A stretch of 64,000 nucleotides of DNA from Malania oleifera (Eukaryota; Streptophyta; Magnoliopsida; Santalales; Ximeniaceae), in contig NC_080420.1 in assembly GCF_029873635.1 (NCBI RefSeq), positions 55,451,457 through 55,515,456 on the forward strand, read 5' to 3'. Shown here piece by piece: positions 18,931 through 59,678 of this stretch. Positions within the stretch are counted from its first letter, which is position 1, and each line of letters starts with the position of its first letter. The translations under genes were made by a program, and so were the position numbers. The notes under the pieces are model-generated. The model saw only the letters and a list, made by a program, of their open reading frames with translations, had not been told where the DNA came from and searched no databases.

Positions 18931-18932
18931 CT

Positions 18933-27824: not shown

Positions 27825-28030
27825 CTGTGTGGTTATTTGTATGCATCTCAATATAACGTTGGCATGAGGAGGTTGTTATATTGCCTAGATGTAAATCATG
27901 ATATGACGTTGGCAGGTCGAGGAGCTTGTCATATTGTTATTTATATGGGGTAGGACATTGGCAGGTCGAGGAGCTTGTTCTACTGATGTACGATGGGTAG
28001 GTCATGGGGATTGGATATTGGTGAATAATG

Positions 28031-28350
28031 GCACCTGTGTAGGCCATGTTATATACCCTGTGTGGGTAGTGGTGCCTGTGTGGGCCATGTTATATCTTGT
28101 GTGGATAATGACGCCTGTGTGGGCCATGTTATATACCATGTGTGGGTAGTGGTGCCTGTGCGGGCCACGTTATATCCTGTGTGGATAATGGCGCCTGTGT
28201 GGGCCATGTTATATACCCTATGTGGGTAGTGGTGCCTGTGTGGGCCATGTTATATCCTGTGTGGATAATGACACCTGTGTGGGCCATGTTATGGACCCTG
28301 TGTGGTTAGTGGTGCCTGTGTGGGCCACATGTAGATAAGAAGTACGTAGG
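28031..28350 (+). repeat. 40-bp tandem repeat, 8 copies, in 80-bp dimers
   Basis: Monomers start exactly every 40 bp (28031, 28071, 28111, 28151, 28191, 28231, 28271, 28311) with a core of GCCTGTGTGGGCCATGTTAT. Odd and even monomers differ consistently (TATACCCTGTGTGGGTAGT versus ATCCTGTGTGGATAATG), so the higher-order unit is 80 bp. There are no unique spacers, so this is a minisatellite and not a CRISPR array. Confidence 0.9.
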
Positions 28351-28530
28351 TGCCTGTGTGGGCCACGTACTGACATGTACGCAGTTGCTCTATGTGGGCC
28401 ACGTACTGAGGACATTGGAAGATGAAGTATGAGATGCATGATTCCTGTGTGGATGTGTTGTGCGCATGTGAATTTAATTATAACATAAAAATAATGGTAT
28501 AGCATATTGTGAATGCATATGTGTGCATGC

Positions 28531-29338: not shown

Positions 29339-30566
29339 CTATATGCTTTGCTATTGAGTGCATAACCTAGGAAAATGCCTTCATCGGATTTAAAATCAAA
29401 TTTTCCTAAGTGTTCATTATCCTTAAGTACAAAGCATTTACAACCAAACATGAGAGTAGGAAATATTAGGCTTACGATTGTTTCATAATTCATAAGGGTT
29501 TTATTAATCGAAGGTCTAATCAACACCCTATTCATAACATAGCATGCAGTATTAATGGCCTCGGCCTAATAATATTTAGGTAAGTTATGCTCATTTAACA
29601 TAGTTTTACCCATTTCTTGTAGTGACCTATTATTTCTTTCTACTACACCATTTTGTTTAGGTGTCCTAGGTGCAGAGAAGTTATGTGATATGCCCTCTAA
29701 GTCACAATATTCCTCTATGCCTTTATTTTTGAATTTCATGCCTCTATCACTCCTTATGTGAGTTATTTTATATCCCTTTTCATTTTGGATTCTCCTACAA
29801 AGTTTGGTGAACTATTCACATGATTCATTTTTATGTGCAAGAAACAACACCCATGTGAATTTAGAAAAGTCATCCACAATTACAAAAGTATAAGATTTAC
29901 CACCAAGACTTTGCACAGAATTAGGTCCAAACAAATCTAGGTGAAGCATCTCTAAAGGTCTAGTAGTAGATATGAATTTCTTTTTCTTAAAACTAGATTT
30001 TGTTTGCTTACCCATTTGACATGCATCACAGATTTTATCCTTACAAAAGACATCTTAGGCAAGTCTTTAACTAATTCTTTTCTAACAAGTTTAGACAATA
30101 AATGCATGCTAGCATGTCCTAGACGCCTATGCCATAACCAACTAGCTTCATTTATAACAGAAAAACATGTTACTTGTTGTGAAACTAAATTATCAAGAGA
30201 GGTAGTATAAACATTTTCATGTCTATCAGCAGTGAAAAGCACTTTGTGATCCATTTTATTTTCTACTATGCATTTGTCATTTTCAAAAGATACTTTGTAT
30301 CCTATGTCACAGGACTGACTTACGCTAAGTAGATTATGCTTCAACCCATCAACTAACAAAATATTGTCAATAGTAAGAGAGAAGTTCTTACCAACCTTAC
30401 CTACCCCAATGATGCGTCTTTTGGCATTGTCGCCAAATGTCACATAGCCTCCATCCTTGGGAATGATTGAAGTGAATTTTCCCTTATCGTCGGTCATGTG
30501 CCATGAGCATCCGCTATCCAAGTACCACCTGTCCTTGGAGGAGGACGACCTTAGGCAAACTTGCAA
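29339..30566 (-). pseudogene. Element G protease and integrase
   Basis: The 30566-29952 stretch has the copia protease motif (WYLDSGCSWHMT, catalytic DSG) and the GAG-pre-integrase motif (WLWHRRLGHASMHLL). Integrase core follows at 30015-29812 (LHLDLFGP...YTFVIVDDFSKFTWV), overlapping in another frame because of a frameshift, and continues at 29535-29344 (GCKCFVLKDNEHLGKFDFKSDEGIFLGY). The downstream part is separated by solo LTR C and resumes at 24974. Confidence 0.88.
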
Positions 30567-30572
30567 AATAAG

Positions 30573-32159
30573 CTAAGTGGTTGATGTTGGTCCCCAAGTT
30601 TTGTTAGGTTTACGGGGGTTAGTAGCCGGATCTCCCTTAACTACCCATACTTTCCTAATTCTAGCATGCTTATTTCTAAGTGGACAATCAAATTGAATGT
30701 GACCAATCTGTTTACATTTAAAGCATCTTAATCTACACTTAGGCTCTTTAGGAGGAATATGAGATTTTGACTCATGTGTAAAGTGTCCTAAGTAAAGATT
30801 AGGTTGTCTAACATTTTCAATACCATTAAAACCACCACCCTCTTTACTTAAGGAGTTTCTTTGGGCACCAAGTAGTTTTTCAAAATTGTTTTTGCCCTCA
30901 GTGAATTTAAAAATGATTTTGGAGTTATCCTCCAATTTCCTTTCAAGCTCAACAACAATGACATCTTTTTTTTTTTTTAAATAGAAGCATGAGAGGTTTT
31001 TGTCATATTAAACAACTTTGATCAATTTTCACATTTCTTTTTCAAATCATTATTTTCTTTGGTCATTTTTCCAAACAATTTAGAAATACGAATATATTCA
31101 AACTGTAATTCCCTAAATGTAGGCATGCAATCACAATCACAATCATCAAATGAACAGTATGAAGACAATGAACTAGAAGGCAATACCTGATCCTCATGTG
31201 CCATCAAGCATAGATTAGTGACCTCCGAGTCACTGTGATCTGATTTTGAGTTGCTGCTACTGAGTTTGTCCCATGAAGTCCCGACCTTCATGGCTTTCTT
31301 CTTTTTCTTAGCCTCCATCTTCAGCAGTGGGCAATCAAGTTTGATGTGCCCCCACCTTGTTGCAATCATAGCATGTAGAAGCATTTGATTTTTCTTTTCT
31401 TTTGCTGGACTCTCCCTTCTCATTAGTAAACTCTCTGTATTTTTTAAAGGGGTTCTAGTTCTTCTTGAAAAAAATTGCTAAATTTTCTAGTTAGCATAGC
31501 CATTTCATCATTAGTGTTAGATTCACTACACTCACTAGATGTGTTAGTGGAAGCTTTCAATGAAGTAACCTTCTTAGTCCTACTATGCTCATTAAGTCTC
31601 TCGTTTATGCTCAATTCATATGTGATCAGGGAACCTATCAATTGATCTAAGGTCATGGTCTTAAGATCTCTACCCTCAGCAATGGCCATAACCTTGGCTT
31701 CCCAAACATGAGGTAAGCCTCTAACGATTTTCTTAATCATCTCATGTGTGGGATAGGTCTTTTCGAATGCATGCAATGAGTTTATGATGTGTGTGAATTT
31801 GGTGTACATGCTCTGAATGGACTCACCTACATTCATCCTAAATCCTCATACTCACTGGTCAACATATCTAGCCCACTATCCTTCACGTCTCTAGTACCCT
31901 CATAACTAACCTCTAACTTATCTCATATTTCTTTTGTGGTAGAACATGCCATAATTCTGTTAAATTCATTCACATAAAGACTACAATATAAAATATTCAT
32001 GGCAGTGGCATTAAGACTAACAACTTTCATATCATCATCATCATACTCATCCTCAGTCTTAGGAACCCTAACTGCACCCTCTATTTTCATAGGGACATAG
32101 TTTCCCTTAGAGACGATCTTCCACACCTTCCAATCAGTATTCTGAAGGTAGATACACAT
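30573..32159 (-). pseudogene. Element G gag
   Basis: Segments at 32159-31923, 31836-31444 (UBN2-type gag: FTHIINSLHAFEKTY...IVRGLPHVWEAKVMAI), 31423-31022 and 30935-30573. The last has a CCHC zinc knuckle (CFKCKQIGHIQFDC). Frameshifts separate the pieces. Confidence 0.85.
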
Positions 32160-32310: not shown

Positions 32311-34168
32311 TGTTAGCTTTACTGTGATTCCAAGAGGGGGGGTGAATTGGTATTTTGAAATTCAATACCTAGGTGAATGTTCTAACACCAGTGTGTTCAC
32401 AACCTTAAGGACAATCTAGTGCAACTAAAGTAAATATAGCAGAATTTAAATAAAGTAATTTAATTAATGCCACATGCATAAGAAAGCAGTAAAGTAAAAG
32501 TGACACACAAAGATGTTATCGACGTTCAGCCAATTGCCTACGTCCCCGCCTTGGCTAACCAGCACAAGGATTACCACTATAACTTGCTCACTTTAACGGG
32601 TGGAGTGACACCTATACAAACCAGGTCAATTCAAGGGGCTGAACTCAACTGTTACATCGAGTTGGATTACCGCCCCCTCAGGTCACGCCTAGAAACACTC
32701 AGATTTTACAATCAAATGGTACAGATAAAAGTGTTTTCAAGTAAAGAAGATTTGTACCCAAATATGCATAATCACATACGCATCAATAGCGTGGATATAG
32801 TGTAAGCTCAGTGATGCAAGATTTGTTCAATCAGTACTCTACACAGTATAACCAATATGAAGCTTAAAAGTATTCAACACAATACAATTAGTATGATGCA
32901 CAAGAGTATTCAACGCAAGCAAAGTCCTGGAATCTAAATAAGATATTTCAGTAGCACATCAATATTCTAAGTAGGATAAACATATAATCAAACTAGTTCC
33001 AAAGTGGTTTTCCTCAATGAAATAGGCACAATACTAGTTTGAAAAAATAACTTGCTTGTTTGAAAAACCTTTGCACACCAAAAGCAAAGCTCTTGGACAC
33101 TTGCAATGGAATGCAAATATCCTAAGCTTTCTTGGTTTAATGCCACACGAGATTTATAAAGGGAAAATCCGTGGGATAAACCTAAGCTAAACTCTCAAAG
33201 AAATAATCTCAAGTACACATACAAGAGGGAGTATTAGCAAAGAATAATAATCACATAAGCACAAGAGAAACTCTCACACTCTTTGATTTTTGGAATGGAT
33301 GCAAGATATGAGAGTATTTGGATAAGGGAAGATTTTTCAGTAGAGAGAGTTTTTTGTTAATCACTTTTTGATAATTGCTTGCTAATAATGCAAATGAAGA
33401 CATATTCATAGAAAGGTGAAAAAATATAACTATTTGGGATGTAATGGGTAGTATTAAAAAATTTCCAAAGGATTAAAATCCAATTAGCCTGAAATAACCC
33501 TATTTTACTGCGATTTAAATAATTTTAACCGGGCAAGGTTCGGGTGGCTGAACCTCGGTTCGGTCGCCTGATCAGACACTATTCAAAAAGTTTTTCAATT
33601 AAGTTCGGTCGCCCAAATAAAGGTTCGGCAGCCCGAATCAAAGTCAGTAGCCAAGTTGGTGAACAGTCCCTTTCGAAGGGTTCGGGCGCCCGGGGAAGAT
33701 GTGTGCATTTGAGGTTTGGTCACCTGAGGGCTGGTCAACATCTTGACTTTCAAAGTTCGGGCACCCGAGAGGTTTTGTACTCCAAAGTTTTTGTTGCCCG
33801 ACTCCTCCTATCTTGCTTAGATTTGTTCGATTTTAAGCACAATTATAACACACTCATATATTTTATGCAATGTGTGTGAGTGTTGGAGTCTAAGGTCTTG
33901 CTATGGTCTAATTGAGCTTACGCTATATCATGTATGCATGATGTGCAGGTGATAAGCATACAACCACAACCTAGGTTACTATTACAGACCCATATAAATT
34001 TTTACAGACCGATATTAATTACAATTACAAATATAAGTCTTCGTGGTCTTGTAGTTTCTTCAAGTGTCATTCCTTGAGATATTTATTTGAACCTGTATAA
34101 GCACTTGACAATCATCAAATATCAATATTTGTCATTATCAAAATCGGGTGCGATCTATGAGGTTAACA
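32311..34168 (-). repeat. Element G 5' LTR, complete
   Basis: 1858 bp, TGTTAGC...GTTAACA in the plus direction. GGGGGTGAATTGG block at 32338-32350. TTCGGTCGCC-like words at 33538-33790. Immediately right of it, GATATTTTTCTCGAG is the truncated 5' UTR of an exon-1 array unit, so G inserted into that array. Confidence 0.9.
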
Positions 34169-34346
34169 GATATTTTTCTCGAGAAAATTTTTGAATTTTA
34201 GGTTCAAATTTTCTTAAGAAATGGAGCGAGCTTCTTCTTGTTCGGGTTTTAAAAGAGGAATCTGGGTGCTTAGTTGGACAAAGAAAAAAAATAAAAAAAG
34301 GAGACATCAACGTAGAAGTTTTCAAATGTATTTTGATTTGGTTTTG

Positions 34347-34685
34347 AAACTTCTGTAATACATTCGGTGTTCTTCTTCGACAGCTACGTAAAGACTTCTT
34401 CCCATTTTCCCCCAAAAGGTGTGAAAACACTTTTTTTTATAATCAGAGACTCCAGCATCAAGCCGATCCTTCAAATCTTCATGAGCGGCACCAACTCTGG
34501 AAGTTGGAGGACTGAGGGTATCCTCTAGCTTCCAGAGTTGGTGCCGCTCATGAAGATACAAAGGATCAGCCTGAGCCTGGAGTCTCTGGTTATAAAAAAA
34601 AAAGTTTTTCACACCTTTTGAGGGAAAATGGGAAGACGTGTTTACGTAGCCGCCGAAGAAGAACGTCGAATGCATTACAGAAGTA
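34347..34685. repeat. Palindrome (foldback) of array unit 1
   Basis: Two arms of ~165 bp (34347-34511 and 34521-34685) around a ~9-bp loop. Both arms carry AACTTCTGTAAT..CATTCG at the outer end and CCAACTCTGGAAG near the centre, in opposite orientation. RNA from either strand could form a long hairpin. Confidence 0.85.
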
Positions 34686-34873
34686 TCAAATTAGCATCTT
34701 CATTTAAACAACCCCCTCTCCCCCAGTTTGGGGAACCCTGCAAAGAACTAAATGCAACAAAATTTTCAAAGCTTCCTTTCCCTCACTTCTTCCCTTTTTT
34801 TGTTTGTTTGCAAAATTTTCCCAACAACCAAATGGAGACAAATTCTAAAAATATATATAACAAAAAATGGTAC

Positions 34874-35122
34874 CTCTAGGAGCTTCGCAGCATACTTCGA
34901 TATGCCATCGAAGACGAGGACCAACATATCCCTGGTCGATCCCATATCGCGAATTGACTTTCCCAGAACTCGAACGTCCAATAGAAATTCATTGCCATAG
35001 AGAAGACTCACATACACCTCTTTTAGTTTTTGAGATGCCAAAACTCCATTGGGTTCAAAAGATCCAAGAAATACCACCAAAATCAATACTAAAAGCGAAT
35101 TGCACAAATTGGACGGTTTCAT
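34874..35122 (-). pseudogene. IPUT1 exon-1 copy 1 (open)
   Basis: 249 bp, 83 codons, beginning [20 protein letters not shown] and ending AAKLLE, followed by a GT donor as in the functional gene. Against the functional exon it has eight substitutions (P33L, A36V, T39S, D44N, G49D, T60M, S71F, V74I). No later exon of the gene follows on this strand, so it can make at most a signal peptide and the first strand of the GT8 fold. The open frame runs on into intron sequence to 34766. Confidence 0.9.
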
Positions 35123-35312
35123 TGTAATTCAAGTTCAAAATTGTGATAATTTTCTCGAGAAAATTTTTGGGTTTTGGGTCAAAATTTTCTCGAGAAAAGG
35201 AGCGAGCTTCTTCACATTTGGGTTGTAAGAGAAGAATCTAGGTGCCTAGTTGGGTAAATAAAAAAAAAAAAACGTCGTCATGGAAATTTTCAAATGTATT
35301 TTGATTTGGATT

Positions 35313-35665
35313 TGAAACTTCGGTAACACATTCGCTATTCTTCTTGGGTGGCTATGTAAACACTTCTTCCCATTTTCCCTCAAGAGGTGTGAAAACATTT
35401 AAAAAAAAAAAAAAAAACTTAGAGACTCCAGCCTCAGGTCGTTCCTTCGGATCTTCATAAGCGACACCAACTCTGGAAGCTAGAGGATACCCCTAGTCCT
35501 CTAGCTTCTAGAGTTGGTGCCACTCATGAAGATCCGAAGGATCGGTCTAAGGCTAGAGTCACTGAGTTATAAAAAAAAAAAGGTTTCCACACCTTTTGAG
35601 GGAAAATGGGAAGAAGTGTTTATGTAGTCGCCAAAGAAGAACACCAAACGCATTATAGAAGTTCC
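35313..35665. repeat. Palindrome of array unit 2
   Basis: Same foldback as in unit 1, with arms meeting near 35485-35500 (ACCAACTCTGGAAGC...GCTTCTAGAGTTGGT). Confidence 0.8.
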
Positions 35666-35854
35666 AAATCAACATCTTCATTTAAACAACCCTCTCCCCT
35701 TGGCCGGGGGAACCCGCCAAAGAACTGAATGCAACAAAATATTCAAAGCTTCCTTTTCCTCACTTCTTCCCTTTTTTTGCTTGTTCGCAAAACTTTCCCA
35801 ACAATATAATTGAGACATTCTTAAAATATATATATATATAACCAAAAATAGTAC

Positions 35855-36103
35855 CTCCAGGTGCTTCACAACATACTTTGATATGCCATCGGAAACAAGG
35901 ACCAACATATCCCTGGTCAATCCCGTATCGCGAATTGACTTTCCTAGAACTCGAATGCCCAATAGAAATTCATCGCTGTAGAGAAGAGTCACATACACCT
36001 CTTTTGGTTTTTGAGATGCCAAAACTCCATTGGGTTTAAAAGATCCAAAAAAACCCACCAAAATCAATACTAAAAGCGAATTGCACAGATTGGACAGTTT
36101 CAT
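35855..36103 (-). pseudogene. IPUT1 exon-1 copy 2 (open)
   Basis: 249 bp, open for 83 codons with a GT donor at its end. Twelve substitutions against the functional exon (P3L, V17G, L19F, E23K, A36V, G43S, V50I, S62L, V74I, A78V, A79V, L81H). A36V and V74I are shared with copy 1, suggesting the two copies share an ancestor after splitting from the present gene. No downstream exons. The frame continues to 35678. Confidence 0.9.
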
Positions 36104-36296
36104 CGTAATTTAAGGTTTGATTGGGGATAATTTTCCTAAGAAATTTTTTGAATTTTGGGTCCAAATTTTCTCGAGAAAAGAAACGAGCTTCTTTGCGTTT
36201 GGGTTTTAAGAGAGGAATCTGGGTGCCTAGTTGGACAAAGAAAAAAAAATAGGAGGCGTTGACATGGAAATTTTCAAATGTATTTTGATTTGGTTT

Positions 36297-36516
36297 TGAA
36301 ACTTCTGTAATGCGTTCGATGTTCTTCTTTGGTGGTTACGTAAACACTTCTTCCCATTTTTAGAGTTGGTGCCACTTATGAAGATCTGAAGGATTGACCT
36401 GAGATTGGAGTCTCTGGGTTAAAAAAAAAAAAAAGTTTTCACACCTTTTGAGGGAAAATGAGAAGAAGTGTTTACGTAACCACATAAAAGGAACACCGAA
36501 TGCATTACAAAAGTTT
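36297..36516. repeat. Palindrome of array unit 3, left arm partly deleted
   Basis: The left arm stops at about 36360 (CCCATTTTT) and passes directly to the right arm (AGAGTTGGTGCC), losing ~120 bp. This explains the shorter spacing between copies 2 and 3. Confidence 0.8.
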
Positions 36517-36664
36517 CAAATCAGCATCTTCATTTAAACAATCCCCTTCTCCCTATTCAAAGCTTCCTTTCCTTCACTTCTTCCCTTTTCTTGCTTGTTG
36601 GCAAAACTTTCCCAGCAACCAAATTGAGACAAATTCTTAAAACATATATAACCAAAAATAGTAC

Positions 36665-36912
36665 CTCCAGGAGCTTCGTAGCATACTTCGATACGCTATC
36701 GGAGACGAGGACCAACATATCCCTGGTCGATCCCGTATTGCAAATTTAATTTCCCAAAACTCGAACAACGAGTAGAAATTCATTGCTGTAGAGAAGAGTC
36801 ACATACACCTCTTTTGTTTCTGAGATGCCAAAACTCCATTGGGTTCAAAAGATCAAAGGAATACTGCCAAAGTTAATACTAAAAGCGAATTGCACAGATT
36901 GGACAGTTTCAT
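36665..36912 (-). pseudogene. IPUT1 exon-1 copy 3 (frameshifted)
   Basis: 248 bp. One C is missing after the codons for Gln-Lys at residues 31-32 (AAACCAAAAG has become AAACAAAAG), shifting the frame. The GT donor is kept. Start codon at 36910-36912. Confidence 0.9.
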
Positions 36913-37118
36913 TATAATTCAAGGTCGGATTGGGGATAATTTTCTCTAGAATTTTTTTTATTTGGATTTTGGGTCCAAATTTTCTTAAGAAAAGGAGCGA
37001 GCTTCTTCGCGTTTGGGTTTTAAGGGAGGAATCTGGCTGCCTAGTTAGACAAAGAGAGAAAAAAAAAAAACAGAAGATGTGGACGTGGAAGTTTTTAAGT
37101 GTATTTTGATTTGGTTTT

Positions 37119-37300
37119 GAAACTTCTATAACGTGTTCGGTGTTCTTTTTTGGCGGCTACGTAAATACTTCTTCCCATTTTCCCCCAAAAGGTGTGGAAA
37201 CCTTTTTCTATTTTTTAGTAACCCAGAGACTCCAGAGGCCGATTTTTGAATCTTCATGAGCGCACCAACTTTAGAAGTTAGAGGATACCCCCAGTCCTCC
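37119..37300. repeat. Half palindrome of terminal array unit
   Basis: Left arm only, ending at the palindrome centre (CCCCAGTCCTCC); unrelated promoter sequence follows. This marks the right border of the array. Confidence 0.75.
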
Positions 37301-37792
37301 AAGAGTGGCAAAACGAGTGGACGGGCTGGTCCGGACGAGTCGCCAACAGACCGAGTTATAAACAGATGGGTTAATATTAAATGGGCCACTTACATGACCA
37401 ATAAGCAAAGAAAGCAGGCGGCGCATGATCAGTAGGGCAGTCAAAGATAATTCATCAGCAAGATCGGAGTGGAAACAAAAAAAAAATTATAGAAAATAAA
37501 AATAAATAGAGGTAGGGATATAGCAGAAAGTTGGACTACTTTTCGATTTCTCTGTATCAAGCATTTCTGAGGACAAATGGATTGACCCTTTATCAAATCG
37601 GAGAAAGGCGGGAGAGACTACTTGTTCGCAGGCAGCAGCGCACCAGCAGGAGGGAGGCAGCCAGATGAGAGGATTGAGAGGGTGAGAGGAGAGTCGACCG
37701 TGACCCGCCGCGACGTGAGAGAGTGAGAAGATTGGACTCAAAATCCAAAAATTTTCTCGAGAAAATTATCCCCAATCCGACCTTGAATTACG
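37301..37792 (+). promoter_or_regulatory. Probable IPUT1 promoter and 5' UTR
   Basis: Unique sequence between the array and the start codon. It contains a TGGGCC box (37382-37387, within AAATGGGCCACT), typical of constitutive plant genes, and an AT-rich TATA-like stretch near 37495-37508. From about 37738 the sequence is shared, inverted, with the array copies, including the 14-bp palindrome TTTTCTCGAGAAAA (37752-37765). The transcription start cannot be fixed from sequence. Confidence 0.5.
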
Positions 37793-38041
37793 ATGAAACC
37801 GTCCAATCTGTGCAATTCGCTTTTAGTGTTGATTTTGGTGGTATTCCTTGGATCTTTTGAGCCCAATGGAGTTTTGGCATCTCAGAAACCAAAAGAGGCG
37901 TATGTGACTCTTCTCTACGGCGATGAATTTCTACTGGGCGTTCGAGTTCTGGGAAAGTCAATTCGTGATACGGGATCGACCAGGGATATGTTGGTGCTCG
38001 TCTCGGATGGCGTATCGAAGTATGCTGCGAAGCTCCTGGAG
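37793..38041 (+). CDS. IPUT1: IPUT1 exon 1 (residues 1-83)
   Basis: Start codon, signal/anchor segment rich in Leu and Val, then [18 protein letters not shown], the first beta strand and helix of the GT8 fold. Phase 0 donor GT at 38042. Copied three times in inverted orientation at 34874-36912. Confidence 0.95.
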
Positions 38042-41000
38042 GTACTATTTTTGGTTATATATATTTTAAGAATTTGTCTCAATTTGGTTGCTGGGAAAGT
38101 TTTGCCAACAAGCAAAAAAAGAGGAAGAAGTGAGGGACAGGAAGTTTTGAATATTTTGTTGCATTCAGTTCTTTGCTGGGTTACCCGGCGGCACCCCACC
38201 CCCCACCTCCCCCCCCCCCCCCCCCCGGGGGGCAAATGAAGATGCTGACATAATGAGTTATGCTTGGCAGAGATGATTTGAGGTTTTAGTAGATCTCTGG
38301 ATATTTTAGTACTATATTTTGAATATATTCTACAAAACTTGGTATTACTCAGATTTTAAGTTAGTTTCCATTTCTTATTGGCCTTTTGAATTATGCAGGC
38401 TGATGGGTGGATCGTGGAGCATATTAGTTTGCTGGCGAACCCAAATCAAGTGCGTCCAAAGAGGTTTTGGGGTGTCTACACAAAGCTTAAAATATTCAAC
38501 TTGACTAAGTACAAGAAAGGTAATCTTTTTTTTTTGGCATTAATTACTTGTTAGTTGGCGAAAAGAAGAGGAAAAGATTGTGAATGAAATTTGGAATTAT
38601 GTGTTTTTGCTTTTTGGTTCCAAAGATTAAAAACCCCATCATTACCACCATGACCAAGGGTTATATCTCACTTCAGGAAGATGGCTGTATGAATCTCTTT
38701 TTGTCATTCTGCCCATTGATCTATATTGCAACTGTCCATCTATCTTCAACTACTTACTAATGATTATGGATATGTTCATTCCTTTATGTTTTATAGCTAT
38801 ACTGACCACCCTTTTTAACATTCTTATTCAAGCTATGTTCACATTTAGAACGTGTTGTTCTTATGTTGCCTAACACTCTAGTCCATATAATGTGGTTGTT
38901 ATATCTTCTGGCTTAAAACCAAATTGAATTTTTTAAGTCCTCATTTCTCCCCCTGGTCTTTGTTCAATTATCCTTTCCCAAGTTCTATTTTATGGCTCAT
39001 AAGTTTACTTCCACAACAATTGTTGCAATTTTGAATGTCTCCTTCATTTTTTATATAATCCCCAGTTCATATAATAATCTCCTTCAATCAACCATATTAT
39101 CTCATTTTTTTACTTAAGCATTTCTAAACTTCTATAGGGATCCATCAAGTCATAAAACTTTTGCATCTCTCAATTTTTTTTGCTGCATACCTGAAAGAAG
39201 TGAATGAGTAATTTTAAAATGATAAAATAAAAAGAAACCAACCTCAAGTAAGTCATGAATGCATGATGTAGTTGTATCCTTTTGAAAAGAATCTAAGATC
39301 TCAGTTGTTTATCCAGCAGTTTCACAGCCAGCAGAGGGGCCTTATCAACTACCACAAATATGATTAATCATGCTTATTTTCTTATTCTGTAGTGCGGCAC
39401 TTGTTTTGGTAAATTGTGTTGATAAGTTACTTGGATTTTTTTTCCTGTTTCTCAGTGGTGTATCTTGATGCTGATACTATTGTTGTGAAAAGTATTGAGG
39501 ATCTTTTTAAATGTGGTAAATTCTGTGCCAACTTGAAGCATTCGGAGAGGTTGAATTCTGGAGTCATGGTAGTGGAACCTTCTGAAGTGGTTTTCAATGA
39601 CATGATGAGCAAAGTGACAACATTACATTCGTATACTGGAGGTATAACATTTAAGTACTCTTCACTTTTAATATACATATAATTATAATGTTTCTTTCCT
39701 GCCATACATGACAGGATCATTTTTTACACTAAATCAAGATCTCTTCAGTTGGAAATGACCAAGCTATTGTATATGATTAAATAAGCAATATTATTGCTGA
39801 CGCAAAGTTCCGTCACTTTTAACCAATTTATTTTGAACACGGCAGGGTTAAAATATATTTCTGTCTTAGAAATAATGTTGGCTTGAGGTTTTATAATAAT
39901 GATGCTGAACTGTTTCTGTCTGAGACAATAATCACACAATTTATTCTGAAGACGCCAGGGTTAAAAAATATTCATGTCTTAGAAATAATGTTGGTTTGAA
40001 GTTTTAATATAATGATGCTAAATGGTGTCTGTATGAGACATAATCACACCTAAAAGTGAATGAATTGTGACATCTATGTAAATCCCAAAACAATGTCCAA
40101 TTTGTGTATTTGTTGATGAGAGTGCATGCTGTAGAAAGATACCAATGATGTGTCCGTAAATACATGTTTGTGAGTGTACAGCCACACTTTTTTCCCCAAT
40201 AATGCATATACAACGATATTATTCAGATACTACCCTGTCATTCATATATTATCCAAAATATCTCACATGCTTGTTTTATGATGGTTCTGCTTTCAAAAAT
40301 AAGCTCATTGGTTTTTGAATCATGAATCATTTGCTGCATAAGGTTTGAAAAAGAGCAGGCATTCTTATTTTTTTAAGTTCTTGATGTTGCTCCCAACCCA
40401 ACCTCAACCCAATTTTTGCTAACACTCATTCATGGTTGCAGGAGATCAAGGGTTTCTGAATTCATATTACAGTGGATTTGCCAATGCGCATGTTTTTGAG
40501 CCAAATCTATCCCCAGACATTGTGAATTCTAGACCTGTTCCTGAAATGGAGCGTCTCTCTACTCTATATAATGCAGATGTTGGTCTCTACATGCTTGCTA
40601 ACAAGGTAATGATTACTGACTTCTGTTCTCATGCATATTGATCTTATAATATCACTTAATAAATAAGATTAGGTGATTAGAACAGTTCTCATCCTAGTTA
40701 TTCAAAATATTTGGTCAATATGTTAAATGCTTTGTGAAATATAATTTGTTATTTACTGCACTAGTTGTTTCTGGCTGGTTTGGTGTGCTCTGATCTCTTT
40801 CTCCTAATTAGGGAATTTTATATAATTTCTTAAATAGCTTTACTTTGTGATGTAGGATGAGAAGCAGGTATTTTGACTCAATTTTTAGGCCTATGCCAAT
40901 GATCAGGGTCAATGAATTTTTGGGTCCTAAACCTAAATGTGCTTAATTAATTTTTTATTATGTGTGTTTAGTTTGCTTGTAGTAGGATTATGTGTTTTGG

Positions 41001-43264
41001 GGGCTTGTTTGTAACGTGTTTTTGTTTTATTTTAGGGGTGTTTGTAATTTCATGTATCTATAGGGGTATATGTGTAATTTCTTGTATTGTAGGCTTTCTT
41101 ATGATAGTGTGTGAAAGCCATGTAGGAGGTTGGTTATTGTTGAATTTGAATTGAGAAGTAATGTGTGATCCCAGGTGTATCGGACTTCCTTCTTCTTCCC
41201 CTTCTCTTTTCTCTTCAATTTTTTTCTAATTTTTCCCTTGGCAGCAGATTCTTATGCTGTCTTCTTCTTCTTGTCTTTTCCATCTCTGATTTTCCTTTCA
41301 AATTTCTCCTCTGTTCTGTAGCTTCTCTCTCTCCCTGCTCTGTTTCTGATCAGAGTTTACTCCTCTCTGTTTTTTCTCTCCTCTATTCTGGTCTGCTTTA
41401 TGTTCTGCCTGCAGCAGCTCTTATTCTTCTTCCTTCTTCTTTCTTTCTTTTCTCCTCTTCTCTCTATTTCTCTTACTCAATTCTCTATCTGTTTCTACTA
41501 TTTCCTTTTCTCTATTCCTTTTTTTCCCCTGCTCATATCAGCCCTGTAATTTTTCCACTCCAGCCAACAAAAGCTGCTCGTAAGCGGTTTTGTACTTTCG
41601 TTGTTGATCTTGGTAGTTGTAGAAATTTAGTTTTTGAAGAAGTTGTGAGAAGTTAAATTTGGAGGTCTAACCTCATCCTCTTCGATACAAAATTGCTTGG
41701 GTGAACAATACCAACTTGAAGGTTCATGATTGTTGCTTGCTTACTTTCAATGTTGGTTCAGTTGTGGAGGCAGTGCAATGTGATATCCTTCCTCTCAAGA
41801 TTTGTCATATTCTCTTGGACCGTCTGTGGTTATTTGATGGGAGGGTTAAGTACGATTGATGTGAAGACTCTTATTCCCTCTCCAGTCTCCATTGATTAGA
41901 AGAAGTATAGGCTGATGCTATATTGAGCTCTTCTTCTCACCAAGATGAATTTTACCGTTGGTTCCTTTCTTATGAAGTGGGATGATCCTATTCATGAAGA
42001 TGGGCTCCTTGGTGCTTTCCCCAACTCAGTGGAGTCGAGTTCTTTTCGGAAGGAGGGAGCTTATGCAGGATGAGATGCGGGTATTTGGATGGATCATTTT
42101 GACCCAATTTGGAGGCCTATGTCAAAGTATAGGGTTAATGGATAATTGGGTACTGAACCAATTAGTTTAGTAGTTGTTGTGTTTAGTTTGCTTGCAGTAG
42201 GATTATGTATTTGGGGGCTTGTCTGTAATATTTGTGTATTTTAGGGGTGTGTTTGCGATTTCATGTATCTTTAGGGGTATATGTGTAATTTATTGTATTA
42301 TAGGCTTCCTTGTAAATAGTGTGTGAAAGCCATGTAGGAGGTTGGTATTGTTGAAATTGAATTGAGAATTAAAATGTGATCTTTCCCCCCCAATTGTATC
42401 TTCTTCCTTCTTCCCCTTCCCTTTTTTCAATTTCTTTTAATTTCTCCCTTGGCGGCAGATCCTTGATGTTGTCTGCATCATTTTGTTTTTCAGCATTCTT
42501 CTTCCTTCTTCTTCTCCTTCCCTTTCTTCAATTTCTTCTAATTTCTCCCTTGGTGGCAGATCCTTGATGTTGTCTGCATCATTTTGCTTTTCAGCAACGG
42601 AGTTTTTGTGCGGTTGGATAAGCCTAAACTTGCTTCTTATTCTATGAAGATCATAACAACATTGTTGATGTTTTTTGTGATCTGATTTTGTCAAATTGCC
42701 TTTGTTGCAAATAGTGTTAAGCAATATAATTTCATATGGGAGGTCTACAACATGTAAGATTGATTTTTCTTTGAAACTTCAAGAATTTCTACGAGCTCAT
42801 CTGATGCTCAGGCCAGGACTCATGGGTATTCAAATTTAGAGGAAAAAAAAGCTTTGGTTTTTCATGCTGTTGATGGGTTTTAGAGCATTCCTGACAGGCG
42901 CCAAAAGTCCACTCACAGTGTTGAATGGCAGAGTTCTTTGCAGGGGTCTGGTAAGGGTTGAGTCATGGCTTAAGGCAATTTAATCTGGTTTGAAAGCACA
43001 CAAGTTATTTGAAGAACGATACCTTTGCTTAGAGTTGCAATAAGAAAAGCTCTAAAAGAATTTAGGGATGGAAGTTTTTCTGTTGTGGAGAGTTCTCTTG
43101 AAGCAAGGAGTGATTCTTGGAGAAGTGGTGTGAGGGTGGCTTTTTAATGATGGAAAAGAAAAGGGTGATCAGTCAGATGAGGAGAGGAATTGGTGATCTT
43201 AAGTGGCTTAAAGGAAAAAAAGTGACTTTGTGCATGATGGCGGTGATGTAGGACAGATGTTAGA

Positions 43265-43331
<67 letters not shown>

Positions 43332-46300
43332 AATAACTATACAATAACTTGCATGTCCAGCACTTATACCACTAATACAACTAACACATATTTACAAATA
43401 AGACCCAACTAAACACATAATTACAAATACTAAATTCCCTAAAAATACAAAGAATTCTTTTCTAAACCTTCCTAAACCTACGCCAAAAATATGTGTGCTG
43501 AATGGGCGGCCTAGGGGGTACAGGTGGTCCTCCTCCATCATGGCTGAAAGGAACTCTGCTCTGCAGAGTGGGACTGCAAATATGACTCCAGCAAGTTAGG
43601 AGCGCTGTCACAAACATCATCCTTGGCAAGCCATGTAGGCGTCTAACTCGGGCTGGCCTCTCCACTGAACCAAGTAGTGATGAAAACCACTATGAGGAGA
43701 CGTCACAAACTCATCATCCAAAATAGACTCCACTGTTTCCTGTGGTCGAGAAATAGAGGGAGGCTGAGGAGCGGCTGAACCTACATGGGCATCAAATGGC
43801 AAACCAGGAGGCTCAAAAGTGCTTTGGTAAGGTGTCAAATCCTCTACATTAAAAACTGGACTAATGGTCATATGAGTAGGTAAATCAAATAAATATGCAT
43901 TAGGTCCAAGTTTCTTAAGCATGAGGAAAGGGCCAATGGCACGAGCATGGAGCTTTTTAAATGAATTTCTATGGTAGTGCTCAGGTTTTATGCGAACCAT
44001 GACACTCTCACCTGCATTAAAATCTCTGGCTCTACGATGTATATCTGCAGCAAGCTTATATAATCCATATTATTCATAGCAAGTTTTCGCCTAACTTCAG
44101 CATGCAGCTCATGAATGTGATGGACAAAAGACTCAGAAGGCTCAGAAATACAGGCATCTGGTGGCAAAGCAACAAGATCAATGGGTGCATGGGGTTTGTA
44201 ACCAAATACACACTCAAAAGGACTCTTACCTGTGGACCTATTCACAGAATTATTATTAGCAAATTCAACAGCAGACAGCACCAAGTCCCAATTGCCCTGT
44301 TTTTCTCCCACAACAGATCTAAGTAGGCCACCAAGACTACGTTCACAACCTCAGTTTGCCTGTCAATTTGAGGGTGGCATGCAGAAGAAAACAAGAAGTG
44401 AGTTCCACACAATTTCTAGTGTCTTCCAAAAGTAGCTAGAGAACTTGAAATCCCTGTGCAGAAATCACAAAGTCGAGAAAGAGCACACTAGATTGTAGAA
44501 AGCTGCACTTCTTGAGGTTAGCAAACAATTTCGCTTCCCTCAAGGTGGCAAAGACCTCATGAAGATGTATGAAATGCTCCTCCCTAGATTTACCATAGAC
44601 CAGTATATCATCAAAGTAGACCACTAGGAACTTTCCTATGAATGGCTGTAGAATATGTGTCATAACCCTCATGAAAGTATTAGGTGCATTAGAAAGGCCA
44701 AGTGGCATGACCAATCACTTGAATAGACCATCCTAGGTCTTAAAGGCTGTTTTTAACTCATCTCCTGGTCTAATTCTAATTTGGTGATACCCACTACATA
44801 GGTCAATCTTGGAGTACCAACTAGAGCCAACTAGCATGTCAAGCATATCCTCAAGTCTAGGAATAGGGAACCTACACTTGACGGTGATTTTTTGATGGCT
44901 CTACTATCCACACATCCTCCAAGATCCATATTTTTTTGGAGTTAGGAGAGCTAGTACAGCACATGGACTAAGGCTATGCCTCACAAAGCCCTTGTCAAGG
45001 AGTTCTCCTACCCGCCTATTCAATTTAGCACGCTCATTAGGGTTCATCCTATAATGTGGCAAGCTAGGTAGCTGTGAACCTGGAATGAAATCTATGGCAT
45101 GCTGAATGTCTTGCATTGGTGGTAGCTCACTAGGTAACTCACTAGGCACAACATCAGGGAACTCAACTAGCAACTTTCCTACCTCAAGTGGGCACTCACA
45201 TAAAGACTCTTGCTCCTCAGAAGGAACCTCTCAAGTGATGACAGCTAAAATGCACCTGTTTTCTAAGCTCTCGCGCTCAAAAGTCCTATGATCAAGCAAC
45301 TAAACATTTCGTTGCACTAGGGCTTGATGGACATCTTATTCCTTAACTTAGGATCTTTGGGGGTGGGCTTGGTAGGGGTCAAAATGATGTTCTTATCTTT
45401 GTGCCTAAACACATAAGTGTTTTCCCTACCATGATTAGTGACATCATGATCAAAGAACCATGGTCATCCAAACAGGACATGGGCCACATCCATCGGGAGT
45501 ACATCATAATAGACCCTATACTTGTAATCTCTCATCTAGATGGGCACAAGATACCTCTCAGTAATGGGTAGATTTGTCCTGTTTACCCAATCCACCTTAA
45601 AAGGCTGAGGGTGTCGCTCTCCTTTAAGGTTTAATCTTTGTAGAGCAGCCTTAGAGATCACATTCATGCTACTACCCCCATCAATAACAAGCTTACATGT
45701 CCTCTCTCCACAACGAATGAAAGTGTGGAAAATAATGGTCAGTTTCTACTTCTTACTATGCATGGTGGTGGATAAGACACACCTAACCACTCTAACATGG
45801 TGGTCAGCCTCCTCAATCATCTACAAGCTCCCCCTCATTTCCCGAGTACTCAACAACATCTACAACCTGATCCTCACAATTGGGCAAACCATCAGTCTCA
45901 CGCTCTAAAGCTAAAGCTTGTTGGGGACAATAGACAACATATGACCTCTAGCATGGCAATGATGACATTGCACAAATAGCTACTAGCTTGAGGAATACTA
46001 GGTCCACTAGAGCGAACAACATGATGTGACTCTATTTGCTTCGTAGAACTCTATCTAGGGGTAGATTGAGGGATGGTAGGCCAAAAGATTTGGACTAACG
46101 TGACACACTCACCTACGATAAAGACCTACGAGAGTTCTTGAGGTACCTTTCGATGGCAAGTTCCTTTTGATAGGATGCCTCTAAGGACTCTAAAGAGAAC
46201 AACTCAGCCTCTCGCTTGGCATCCTCCTTAAAACCATTCACAAACCTTGCTACAGTGTGATGTGTGACCTCAACAACATCACTCCTAAGCGTCAGTTCCT

Positions 46301-49300
46301 CAAATCGATTAATGTAGCTAGCTACAGTATTGGTTGTTTATGGTTCAAGGGCTCGTTGAACAGCTGGCTCCTAAAGGAAGGAGGGATGTATTTTTCCATC
46401 AATCGTTGTCTCATCACTTCCCACCAGGTAATAGGAGGTTCACCTAACAGTTCTAGGGTTTGTTGTACATTTTGCCAATGCTTCTTTGTCGGCCCTACTA
46501 GTTTCATCTTGGCAAACCAAACTTTATCCTCACCCTGTGTACGGTACCAATTAAAAAGTCCTTCTCCAATATCCAGTCTAAAAAGGAGCTTGGGTCGAGT
46601 TTCCCATCATGCATGCACATCCACCTTAACCTTTTTTGTCACATCTCCATAGTCTTCCCAACCCTGCCTAGGGGAATGCAGAGCATGCTTGGGGTTAGGT
46701 TTGTACCCTGCATCGTTACCTTCCTCGAACCTAGACTCTAGATTAACTTGAGGCTAGGGGGGCTGAACTAGCCTAGCGGTCTGTTTTGGAGCCTAACTCA
46801 TATTATTAGGCACTAGAGAAACCTCGGGAGTAAGAAGGATACCTTGGGCTGACCCTATTGAATATGGGGAGTCGTTAGGGTGCTTAATAGATGGCTCTAT
46901 GTCTTCCACAACAGGGTGCTTGCCTAACATCCTCAAGACTTTGTTAAAATGTTGTGTGAGGTGCTCAAACTTTTGGTCCACAGACTCATGAAGAGTGTCT
47001 AATCGGGTAGACGAGGACTGAGTGTCAGTGGGTGCAAGTTCGTTGGGGTCAATGATTTTGTTGGTGACCATGGTTAATGCAATATGCTACAATCATGTCG
47101 TGGAGGGCTAAAATTGACTATGAATGATATGAATCCTAAGATTACTACAATGCACAAACATAAAGCTATAGAATATAATGCATATGAGTGGATATGGTCA
47201 CACATAACATGGCAACATGCGATTGACTATGCATGGATTTGAACAAGGATGCAGTGATGACTTAGCTAGGGGAATGTACAGAATGAAGGGCAGTATTTTT
47301 TATTTTGATTTGATTTGATTTTTTATTTTTGAGTAATAAGAAACTTGGGAGTATGCAACTACGAATTTTCCTTAGCCGTTCAAACAATAGTCAAGAAAAT
47401 GCAAGAGTTTGTTCACCCTGCCAAGGAATTGGAGCACAATTTGAGTTTTCCATTGATTTCCAATGTTAGACCAGCAATTTCTCAAGTCCCTACTCCCCGA
47501 TTCACAGGAAAACAGATGTCAAACAGTAGTTCGAACTCGATCTGAATGCTGACGAAGCTTCAAAAGTCTGAAGTTTGCTCAGGCAGCCTAATTTTAGGCT
47601 GTATGTGATCTTAGGAATGCAAACAAAGCTTGATAACTCAATTTCTCCTCTGACAGCTTCATAATCTTAGGAGACAAGTCAAATTCTTAAAGCAGGAAGC
47701 AGTTTCTCGTTAGTCTGGGCAAAACTGGAGAACTCCAGCAACTTCCCCACGCGTGTGGCCGGTGCGTGGAGCGTGTGAGCTGCCGGCGATGGACCTCCAG
47801 CGATGGGGTTCCGGCTGGTGGTAGATCAGGGGTAAAGATTCCAGTGATGGTGGAGGTGTAGCAAAAAAAAATGCAGGAAATAGGGGATTTAGAAGGGCTG
47901 CCGGCTGGGGTAGTTTCAGGTGGCGCGTGGGGGCCAATCCCTTGTTGGTTGGGGATGATATTGTAGGGGAAGGGGTTTCGGGGGTGTCTGTCTGTGATGG
48001 TGAAGGAGGTGCTGCGAAGTGCTGCCTGGAATTTAGGGTTTTGAAACCAGTGGCACGAGTGTAAATTCCTGGAAAAGTTGCAGGCTGATGAATGCTTCTT
48101 TCTGGGATTTTTCTGCGACTTCTGACTTGTTATTGCATCAATGAAGTCTGTTAGAGTAGAATGGAGTTATGCGGTGGATGTGGTTTGAGCTTTTGAATGA
48201 ACCGTGGTGGAGATTGTTACAGGAGCTACAAATCTGATGGAAAAACTGCAACAGGAAAGTCTGGAGTTGAATGGATTAGGTTCTGATATCAATTTGATGT
48301 AGGACAGATGTTAGACTATGTGTGTGTGTGTGTGTATATATATATATAGAATTGTGAGAATTAGAAGAAGAAGAGGGAGAAGAAGTAGATAAGAAGAAGA
48401 AGAAGAGAAGCAGCAGCAGCAGAAATACAGAACAGAACAGGGGTGAGAGACAGAATTAGAAGAGAGATAGGAGAAGAAGAGGAGCAGAACCTGTGGGAGA
48501 GAGAGAGAGAGAGGGAAACTGCAATCTGATTCAAAACAATGACTATACACTAACTTGCATGTCCAGCACTTATACCACTAATACAACTAACACATATTTT
48601 TACAAATAGGACCCAACTGAACACATAATTAAAAATACTAAAATCCCTGAAATTACAAAGAAATCTTTCCTAAACTTACACCTAAAACATGTGTGCCGAA
48701 TGGGCGGCCTAGGGGGTACAGGTGGTCGTCCATCAGGCGGCTTATTCTTGGATGAGTTTTGCAAGCAGTATGGTTGCAATTTGAACTCTTTAGCAACCGT
48801 ATATGATTTCTCCCATGTATGAGAGATTCCTATGGTAGACTTGGAAGCAATACCTATGTTTGAGCAGAGGAAGAAATTAATAGAAAGAGATAGTTAATTG
48901 TCAGGTTGAGTGGCAGGCAGTTAATTCTAAAGGAGATGGTTTTTCACCTACACCTTTTTTTTTTCTTTTTTAGAGAACCCGGTTGATGAAAATGAGATTG
49001 ATTCTTAAAAACTCATGGATAAGATGATCTTGTTGTTGTCTACACTAGGAGGGCAAGAGGCTAGGTGGATTGTGGTAAAAGGCTAAAAGCTGAGAAGGGT
49101 CAAACAGAGTTGGCAAATTTGAAGTGTACTGTAAATTATGATGGAAGGTTCCTTTTACGTTTGTTTATTTTGAAAACTCCTTGTTGTCCCTTATCTTGTA
49201 TTTTTTTACCATCTTAAATAAATTTTCTTTTCCTATTAAAAGGAAAAAGCACTTTAATTATAGGAAGGATGATGAGGGTGAGCCTTGACCCAATGGTAAG

Positions 49301-52300
49301 GTTGTTACCCTAAAAGTAGCTCACAGATGCCACAGAAACAGCCTACTCAATTGTGGAGATAAGTTTGTGTACTTCCATGTCCTCCCCAGCCCCCCTGATC
49401 TAGCATGGGACATTTGTGAACTAGTTATTGCATTTTTTGGATGAAATTCTCTTATTTGGTCAAGTTCTCTTTTTTGAATAAAATTTTTTCGCATTAGTGC
49501 ATTTACTTCACAGCTCTCACTTCAAAGTACTGCTGTGGGGGCATAACCATATTTTTAACTTGCAAAATTTTGTAATTGGTATAAATCCTACTGTTTTATA
49601 AAATTCCAGTGGTGAACTTGGGTATGCCTCTGCTCCTCACCTCCTTCATCAGCCATTCTTGCTCACTTGCAACCTCCCATCTTTATACACAATTGATCAC
49701 TATCAACAAAATCACCAATCCATCCCTGCAACAGCCTAGTCAGCCTAGAAACAAATGGATCTCCATACCCACCAAATTTTCAACTGTGCTTAGTTCTCAC
49801 AATCACCAATACTGCCATCATTTCCTGGACACAACGATCGTCAATATTGCTTCTGTGAGAGTAAAGCACAACTGTTTCATCAGGAGACAGATTCAGGGTT
49901 TGTGGGATGTGATCCTGCCATAACCAATTGAAAACCCTGGAAGGGAAATTGCAGTACAAGGACACTGGGAAGTCAGAGGTACCTCCCTCACAGCAATGCT
50001 GTCTACTGATGCATGTGTGCGTGTGCGTGTGTGTGTGCAGGTGTGCACATGTGTGTGTGTGTGTGTTAGAAAGAAAGAAGTAAAGTGAGATGCATTAATA
50101 ATTAAGATTTCAAGCTATAATTCTTTGTGCCAGCCAAAAACTAATTATAATTTTGACCTAGATACAATTCTGACCCCTGATTCTGATTCCAATTTTGCAG
50201 TCCAAACACAGATGCTATTCATTTTTGTATGCTAATGGCTTTTCATAGTGTTACTTTCTAATATTTGATGCCTATAGTCTCTGTCATTGTATTTGCTCAT
50301 CACTCAAAGATATCAATATGCATTTATGTTGTTTGTACGTATCAATTTGCATTATAAGCTTATCTATATCTTCCTTTGTTGAATCCTTTATCCAGTAGGT
50401 AACATTGCATGAAGCACGGGCTGAAAAACTTTTGCAATATTTTTTTGGGAAGGAGAGTCAGTTGAATAAGTAATGAGCCCAGAATTGACTTATGCTTTTG
50501 TGTGTACTATTCTCTTCTTCCATTGATGAATAAACATTTTTTTTTTTTGCTTTAGAACTTCAAAGCAAAGCATACATGTGAAGATACAAAATACATCTTC
50601 CCTCAACCTCACCTTCAAACATATTGCTATAAATTTTTTAAAAAAATTCTCGTTAAAATTTATGTCCTTAGACAACCAAATAGACACAATACCTAAGAAA
50701 TCATGCCTTGAGGTTCCAAATTGAGAGTTCCTTTTCATTTCTTTTATTTATTCCTGCTACACACACCAAAAGCAGGGCTGTTCTCCAGATTAGTTCTGCC
50801 TTCCTTGCATGTATCTTTTTTTGTTTGTTCAAACTTCGTATCAAACATGCCAGTGACTGCTCAAGTTTGTGTTTGCTGATCCATTCCTTTCCCTGAATAT
50901 GAGTAAAAGGTGGTGTATACTGTCTCGGCCTGTGTCAATTTTGTACTTTATTCAAATCTAACTATGATGAATGATATGGATTCTTATGATGCTAGAATAT
51001 TCTTTAATGTTCTTCTTTTTTCATTTGGCCTACTTGGATTGTATTGAATTTTGTGATCATATAATGCAGTTTGACCTTTTACTAATCCTTAAAGATTTTA
51101 CAGTTCATTTAAGAATTGTTTGACTAAATATTGTGGAGACATTTCCTTTGAATTTGATGGCACATGACATGACCATTAGTGTCAAAATTTTAGTTAGAAC
51201 AAATGCAGCAGCTATTGACATCATTCATTTTAAAAAAAATTCCTTGGGCTATTCCAATAGTTATTCTGATTCTGAGTCCATTGGTGGAAATACTGCAGAC
51301 CTCGGTGCTAGTCCTTTTTTTTTTTGTTCCTCTTTTCTTTTCTTCCTTTTTTTCGTTTTTTGAAATGTTAAGAATATTAGGATATATTAGGATTTCAATG
51401 ACAGAACTACAAGAGGGACTCACTGGAGTACAATTGTCGATAGAAAACCGATACAAATCTGGCAGTAGTTGTGGAAGAGGCTATCTGCAAAATCTACAGA
51501 AGAACCAATATTCAAATAGAAGTTACTCTTAAGTCTTAACAGAAAATGTGAAACAGAGAACCACTTCTCTTTCAGCTTGTCAGATGAAGCTTCGATCCCT
51601 ATAGGGCCTTTGCATTTTCTCTCCTCTAAATTAATGGGAAAAGTGCTAAAGAAATTGCATGCCAAAGCTCCTTGTCTCTTGATCTGCATTACCCTGGCTG
51701 CCACCACCCAGGTGCTTGGGGGAATTGTATGCATGCATGCTAATGTGTCCCCTGGAAAAAACCTGTTCTGAGTCTAGTTTTTGACAAAATCAATTGATCG
51801 TTTCATGGCTAATGTAATATGATTGGTTTGGGCCTTTGATTTGCATGTACTTTGCCAGTGTATCATATTGTTCTTTTTATGTGTTGCATATGCAGTGGAT
51901 GGTAAATGAGGCAGAACTTCGTGTTATTCACTACACACTTGGCCCTCTTAAACCATGGGATTGGTGGACATCCTGGCTTTTGAAACCCGTTGATGTCTGG
52001 CAGGTATAAGCTGTTAATTCCTTCCTGTTCCCTTTCTCTTAGCTGATCAATTTCTATATGCTTGGTGGTCTATGTAATTGCTTTTCATTTTCAATTTCTT
52101 CATGTAATCCTTCCCCCTATACTCTTTAGTTTTCTCCTTCATTCTTTAATTATTTCTTCCTCCTTTTGTCGGGTTTAGTTTGTCCTGGGTTTGTGTACAT
52201 GCACGTGTTCTAGATAGACATGCAGTAGTCTATGCTGCTATTGGGTGTGATGGGGCTAGTAGCATAAATTGTTGTTTATTGACGTGGAAGGTGGTTCATT

Positions 52301-55300: not shown

Positions 55301-55428
55301 CATTCCATTTTTTCAACAATTTCTTTTTTTGACATTTTTTATTGGAGGTTGAAGGTATGCATGTTTGCCTTTCCCTTATAAACACTACCAACCATCCTTC
55401 AGTAGGGTCTGTAGACTCTGTACTTAAG

Positions 55429-55477
<49 letters not shown>

Positions 55478-59631: not shown

Positions 59632-59678
<47 letters not shown>

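Follow-up and report, generated by a model that had tools for sequence, protein, structure and literature searches.

An inverted array of IPUT1 exon 1 copies in Malania oleifera, probably a decaying relic of tandem duplication and inversion

The stretch of Malania oleifera DNA analysed here (the window, 64,000 nucleotides, C4:55451457-55515456 of a 1.494-Gb assembly) contains an intact IPUT1 gene and, head-to-head with it on the minus strand, an array of partial copies of its 5' end. Our data suggest that the array is not a dedicated regulator but probably a decaying relic, left when the 5' end of the gene was duplicated in tandem and the duplicated block was then inverted. The idea that the array silences IPUT1, raised in a preliminary description of the locus, is a fair hypothesis that is not supported: the trigger named for it faces the wrong way, and the mutational trace expected on its target is absent.

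The gene next to the array is IPUT1, as had been proposed. Its product is 99% identical to the Malania oleifera RefSeq protein "inositol phosphorylceramide glucuronosyltransferase 1 isoform X2" and contains the GT8 domain PF01501. A protein search of the genome, in which only the best candidates were scored (26 candidates, 20 matches), matched exons 2-10 at this locus only, while the remaining matches were the exon 1 copies and four GT8 relatives with 34-40% identity. Within the reach of this search, IPUT1 is single-copy in the assembly. Probing the whole genome with exon 1 gave seven matches, namely the intact exon, three copies in the array and three dispersed loci. The features of the intact gene, including the part of the 5' untranslated region (5'UTR) that it has in common with the copies, are as follows.

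37793-62430, plus strand: complete IPUT1 gene, frame of 545 aa in ten exons bordered by AG/GT
37793-38041, 38399-38519, 39456-39641, 40442-40605 and 51896-52003, plus strand: exons 1-5
52341-52478, 52598-52735, 53035-53302, 53408-53531 and 62289-62430, plus strand: exons 6-10
37793-38041, plus strand: intact exon 1 from ATG to splice donor, within the 99% RefSeq protein match
37732-37792, plus strand: 5'UTR part common to the intact gene and the copies, homology stopping at about 37725-37732
38234-38248, plus strand: 15-bp stretch within intact intron 1, the last to match the array units before divergence, judged by eye

Three tandem minus-strand copies of 5'UTR, exon 1 and the start of intron 1 had been described, two of them with start codon, open frame and splice donor, and we located them at 34730-36978. 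The ATG and the GT donor are kept in all three (c1, c2 and c3); the frame from ATG to donor is open in c2 and c3, and broken in c1 by a stop and a 1-bp deletion. The copies are 88-91% identical to intact exon 1 in the whole-genome probe, and their intact counterpart is 37725-38186 (37732-38153 for c1). The array (34169-37302) is built of units of about 980 bp, which besides 5'UTR, exon and intron start include an upstream segment and a palindrome, and the four exon 1 units, that is the three copies and the intact one, are similarly spaced. Its left edge at 34169 abuts the end (34168) of a long terminal repeat (LTR) of a retrotransposon, here called element G.

34169-34207, minus strand: isolated 5'UTR fragment of 39 bp at the left array edge, 87% identical to 37732-37770
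34208-34342, minus strand: orphan fourth upstream segment with no exon after it, array-specific match
34343-34690: palindrome with array-only outer arms enclosing two SINE-like 3' ends inverted relative to each other
34730-35191, minus strand: copy c3, 5'UTR, open exon 1, donor and intron 1 start, 90% identical to intact
35192-35302, minus strand: upstream segment of c3, array-specific match
35303-35676: second palindrome, built alike
35707-36172, minus strand: copy c2, 5'UTR, open exon 1, donor and intron 1 start, 88% identical to intact
36173-36286, minus strand: upstream segment of c2, array-specific match
36287-36520: third palindrome, truncated
36554-36978, minus strand: copy c1, 5'UTR, exon 1 with stop and frameshift, donor and intron 1 start, 90% identical to intact
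36985-37107, minus strand: upstream segment of c1, array-specific match
37108-37302: half palindrome stopping near its centre, at the right array edge
37303-37731: sequence now upstream of the intact gene, a mosaic of dispersed repeats with 31 genome matches including itself

The arrangement of the upstream segments and of the 5'UTR pieces points to an inversion. An upstream segment (111-135 bp) precedes every copy and is missing from the intact gene, and its four matches in the genome all lie inside the array. The orphan segment at 34208-34342 is followed by nothing but 39 bp of 5'UTR. Four upstream segments are thus set against three copies and one intact exon 1, which favours inversion of the full block. 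The 39-bp piece of 5'UTR is inverted at both breakpoints, and this overlap fits staggered breaks, which in Drosophila are reported to give inversions with inverted duplications at the breakpoints (PMC3355041). It is therefore in line with an inversion model.

The three dispersed loci are informative about which side was rearranged. All three have a common unit of some 1.34 kb, 75-79% similar among them, in which terminal repeats enclose a degenerate version of the IPUT1 5'UTR, exon 1, donor and beginning of intron 1. Where they match the intact gene, the identity is 71-83%; longer matches between them and the array copies gave 68-78%.

L005, 1230-2567 (C3): Pack-like locus, own-genome match
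L006, 825-2116 (C6): Pack-like locus, own-genome match
L007, 1007-2321 (C6): Pack-like locus, own-genome match

The ends TAGGGCTGCA, similar to terminal inverted repeats (TIRs), are exact at one end in all three loci and have at least one difference at the other (read by eye), and we take them to be of hAT type. A target-site duplication was seen by eye in L007 (8 bp with one mismatch, 7/8) and less well in L006 (5/8), and none was seen in L005; the duplication made by hAT elements is 8 nt long according to a published account (PMC8903248). Judged solely by size (about 1.4 kb), the units probably lack a transposase. These loci resemble Pack-hAT elements. They are a second, older copying of the start of IPUT1, copies of which therefore seem to have arisen on at least two occasions. 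Past the point where homology to the intact gene stops, all three continue to match the array for 16-22 bp, which suggests that it is the intact gene that was rearranged. Downstream of the captured exon, all three have a motif like an upstream sequence element (USE; GTCCCACATCG or close) 33 bp before TATAAA, a spacing as in plant small nuclear RNA (snRNA) promoters. An snRNA gene was considered and is not supported, as Rfam found nothing up to an E value of 0.5 in the five loci given.

Base comparisons suggest that intact exon 1 does not stand outside the array, and that there are four sibling units of which one keeps the rest of the gene, although tree support for this is weak. A maximum-likelihood tree that included the Packs (about 420 columns, ultrafast bootstrap) gave the split of intact and c1 with a support of 81 and attached the Packs to c3 with 64. 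At nine columns the copies agree with each other against the intact gene; the Pack majority backs the copies in seven, neither base in two, and the intact base in none. Where two units stand against two (11 columns), the intact exon pairs with c1 in six, with c3 in three and with c2 in two. The Kimura two-parameter (K2P) distances of the copies from the intact sequence are 0.089-0.107, and those between copies 0.135-0.139 (about 12% difference), so that the copies are unlikely to be assembly duplicates of one another. Gene conversion between intact gene and copies left no sign in the longest shared runs, which were ordinary in all six pairs (lowest P 0.12).

We propose the following order of events. 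A repeat similar to a short interspersed element (SINE), situated in or near intron 1, would have been made into a palindrome by fold-back at a short inverted repeat within it, and the unit of upstream segment, 5'UTR, exon 1, intron start and palindrome would then have been amplified in direct tandem, with intact exon 1 as the last unit. The block in front of the intact 5'UTR would next have been inverted, which would have carried the upstream segment of the gene itself to the opposite end and left the 39-bp inverted duplication of the 5'UTR, 34208-34342 being in that case the former proximal upstream region of the gene. Repeat debris may then have filled the new junction, and an LTR element may have settled at the other edge. 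Afterwards the array would probably have been methylated like other repeats, perhaps via double-stranded RNA (dsRNA) made from the palindromes within it, while the gene would have stayed open and been run from its rebuilt upstream region.

The palindromes are of about 350 bp, two of them full, one truncated and one half, and every unit has all or part of one. Their outer arms had no match outside the array in the genome search, and the inner part matches at least 24 further places (54 matches, 28 candidates). Eleven of these loci were aligned and represent a SINE-like repeat, with an A-rich tail after a 3' part common to them; several have a tRNA-like head containing GTTCGAGTGC. A stricter scan of 21 overlapping loci gave six distinct tails, with the head in three of the six and a target-site candidate in two of three, both candidates being short and A-rich; since so few heads and target sites were found, the label is limited to "SINE-like". 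The motif GAGGA-N9-TCCTC, or a close variant, is present in 10 of the 21 dispersed loci (six distinct sequences displayed) and forms the centres of the palindromes in the array. Fold-back at this inverted repeat would be the simplest origin of the palindromes. The 9-mer between the arms is nearly identical in the three palindrome centres displayed, in either orientation. The 9-nt arm spacing had also been considered as a sign of a Mutator-like array, a reading which was rejected because the 9-mer belongs to the SINE-like sequence.

The term "decaying" rests on the pattern of changes in the copies, which show no clear protein constraint. Between c2 and c3, omega is 0.64 (8 synonymous and 16 nonsynonymous changes); the values of 0.26-0.39 for intact versus copies include the constraint on the intact gene itself. 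Non-CpG transitions are about equally rare at nonsynonymous sites (8/165) and in non-coding sequence (10/159), in line with a lack of clear constraint. Selection keeping the frames of the copies open was considered and is not supported: in simulations with substitutions only and no indels (1500 per setting), a neutral exon 1 with 17-20 substitutions stayed open in 53-46% of runs, so that two open frames of three are unremarkable. Deamination at CpG sites separates the copies from the intact exon. When the sites were taken from the groups other than the one scored, none of 10 CpG sites is deaminated in intact exon 1 (one was lost by transversion), versus 11 of 27 in the copies (two in c1, six in c2 and three in c3; P 0.018). 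Sixteen CpG positions are present in two or more of the groups intact, copies and Packs; of these the intact gene keeps 15 and has no TG/CA, which occurs at four positions in c1, seven in c2 and five in c3. Transitions in the copies affect 28 of 108 CpG positions versus 37 of 423 other C/G positions, the cells not being independent. The observed/expected CpG ratio is 1.11 in intact exon 1, 0.31 in exons 2-10 and 0.46 in the window. Retention of CpG in intact exon 1 would argue against lasting methylation of the gene.

Several observations weigh against the sequence of events proposed here. The bootstrap values of 81 and 64 are under the usual ultrafast threshold of 95, in an alignment of limited length (about 420 columns), and the Packs join c3 in that tree. 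Among the seven columns backing the copies, two rest on a single Pack and one has a dissenting Pack, and another, an Ala/Val codon, is probably a case of parallel CpG decay, as Ala is found at that codon in three other plants. The stretch shared by Packs and array upstream is short (16-22 bp). Synonymous non-CpG transitions in the copies are in excess (19/99, compared with 8/165 nonsynonymous and 10/159 non-coding) and lack an explanation. The CpG ratio of the array (0.73) exceeds those of the window and of the LTRs (0.54-0.61) and is not down to the LTR level, so that decay is claimed relative to the intact exon only. The CpG site counts are small, and selection on the coding sequence also protects the CpGs of the intact exon, which weakens the contrast between intact gene and copies. 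Finally, the left edge of the array lies exactly at the LTR end, and the orphan segment may for this reason belong to a fourth copy that was cut by element G, in which case the four-to-four count would be coincidental. Such a cut at 34168/34169 may have occurred, as neither a clean left edge of element G nor a target-site duplication was found.

The last point also favours an account that we regard as quite possible, in which a single exon 1 copy, together with its upstream region, entered the locus in reverse and was tandemly amplified afterwards. The array would then never have included the intact gene, and would still be a non-functional relic. This account makes a separate block inversion unnecessary and agrees with the uniform orientation within the array, and the tree support against it is weak. 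It predicts, however, changes common to all copies and absent from the intact gene, whereas the Pack majority backs the intact base in none of the nine columns in question; and it leaves unexplained why the upstream segment is missing from the intact gene but kept in the copies and, over 16-22 bp, in the Packs. That the array units are themselves Pack-type transposable elements, which captured the 5' end of IPUT1 and landed beside the gene, is very improbable. Three dispersed hAT-like Packs did capture exon 1, and the exons of the array lie between inverted arms that resemble terminal repeats; but the outer arms and the upstream segment are without match outside the array, the centre of the palindromes is internal SINE-like sequence, and the copies are nearer to the intact gene (88-91%) than to the Packs. 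The array units, unlike Pack-TYPE elements, have no dispersed copies and no recognised transposon ends (no TIRs of a known superfamily), target-site duplications not having been systematically searched.

The inversion model has a consequence for the promoter of the gene. A patchwork of dispersed repeats fills the 430 bp preceding the shared 5'UTR, with pieces at about 37303-37402, 37445-37583, 37585-37623 and 37628-37711; the whole of 37303-37731 consists of three or four different dispersed repeats, the ends of which mostly recur. It is tempting to speculate, although we consider it rather unlikely, that the inversion removed the proximal upstream region and IPUT1 survived on a promoter made of transposon debris about 60 bp before the ATG, the old upstream regions persisting half a kilobase away as hairpin-bearing and possibly small-RNA-producing relics.

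Silencing of IPUT1 by the array requires dsRNA, and the preliminary description had suggested that plus-strand transcripts entering on the left, for instance from the LTR region of element G, could supply it. The geometry behind this suggestion holds: a plus-strand transcript over 34169-38121 would contain antisense and sense exon 1 with 390 nt ungapped and 91% complementary, and fold-back dsRNA from the array and intact exon 1 is possible on paper. The predicted duplex energy of c3 with intact exon 1 is -606 kcal/mol, strong internal hairpins are predicted in the array on either strand, and 53 of the 290 21-mers of intact 5'UTR and exon 1 are matched exactly in at least one copy. Element G is, however, not suited as trigger, and was rejected as source of plus-strand read-through, since it lies on the minus strand.

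32441-34168, minus strand: LTR of element G adjoining the array, read as 5' LTR with promoter directed leftward

When ten of its frames were tested, Pfam domains were present in four of seven minus-strand frames and in none of three plus-strand frames: a zinc knuckle (30576-31007), Pol_BBD and GAG-pre-integrase (29955-30572), and reverse transcriptase (24021-24416 and 24423-24776). By these domains we take the element to be of Ty1/copia type. The domain order from right to left, together with a polypurine tract on the minus strand (read by eye), makes the LTR touching the array the 5' LTR, with transcription directed away from the array. Its LTR pair has a K2P distance of 0.088, below that between the copies, so that the array would be older than element G if rates are equal. 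A target-site duplication of element G was looked for and not found, the left LTR having no clean edge.

We consider it improbable that the array is a natural inverted-repeat silencing locus tuning IPUT1 via small interfering RNAs (siRNAs), perhaps in a tissue- or stress-specific way. The long complementary arms, the exact 21-mers and the predicted hairpins are in its favour, and the degree of identity does not exclude it: Arabidopsis PAI3 is methylated at 90% identity to the other PAI genes (PMC3203196), and soybean CHS7/8 are targeted at 81% similarity to CHS4 (PMC6710647). Against it, besides the direction of the promoter of element G, a transcript that runs in the same direction as the copies is of mRNA polarity and is by itself unable to target IPUT1. 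The target also lacks the deamination seen in the copies, and the copies are without clear constraint. The relevant work on the product of the gene was reportedly done in Arabidopsis. Absence of its glucuronic acid (GlcA) on glycosyl inositol phosphorylceramide (GIPC) is reported to prevent pollen transmission (PMC4970446), and strong silencing of a single-copy IPUT1 would therefore be costly. A literature search pairing "Malania oleifera" with "small RNA", over titles and the beginnings of abstracts, found no Malania small-RNA study among seven papers.

The parallel with PAI and CHS, drawn earlier in support of silencing, is sound as regards identity, the range of 81-90% being sufficient in those systems, but does not extend to arm length, the arms here being shorter than at CHS, or to promoter arrangement, which differs in PAI. 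The PAI1-PAI4 locus of Arabidopsis Ws is similar in that inverted copies share identity with functional genes. It differs in being tail-to-tail, with two genes and a heterologous promoter from which transcription starts some 500 bp before the methylated part (PMC3203196), whereas the Malania array consists of head-to-head exon 1 fragments, the promoter proposed for read-through, that of element G, being directed away from them. The soybean CHS I locus is likewise a local inverted gene cluster. It differs in its two identical arms, each of 10.91 kb and made of whole genes, which flank 5.71 kb, and in its siRNAs and seed-colour phenotype (PMC6710647); the arms in Malania are at most 390 bp ungapped and 91% alike. 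The staggered-break inversions of Drosophila are alike in the short inverted duplication of single-copy sequence at both edges, the separation of a gene from its upstream region and the debris at the junction (PMC3355041). The inverted block in Malania differs in being a small tandem array, and its uninverted ancestor was not seen.

Other features of the window are recorded here as side observations. In intron 1 of the intact gene, 38209-38232 consists of 18 C and then 6 G, where the copies have a different sequence; an assembly weakness or structured DNA is possible. Isoform X2 has six additional residues (LSNGAQ), encoded at 53017-53034, which apparently reflect an alternative acceptor of exon 8. 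Introns 4 (40606-51895, 11.3 kb) and 9 (53532-62288, 8.8 kb) contain transposon debris, including diverged direct repeats in intron 4 (40870-41278 and 42096-42490) and, in intron 9 near 58.0-58.8 kb, frames noted by eye that presumably encode a Ty3-like integrase. An 80-bp tandem repeat lies within element G (28021-28368). A further LTR pair (9359-10951 and 18933-20516, spanning 9359-20516) has a K2P distance of 0.158 and is more diverged than that of element G.

If tandem duplication followed by inversion is indeed the origin of the array, the locus would be a case of natural promoter replacement at an essential gene, brought about by tandem duplication of its 5' end and subsequent inversion. 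The locus would further offer a natural test of the reasons why inverted copies silence their relatives at PAI and CHS but not here, beside an indispensable gene.

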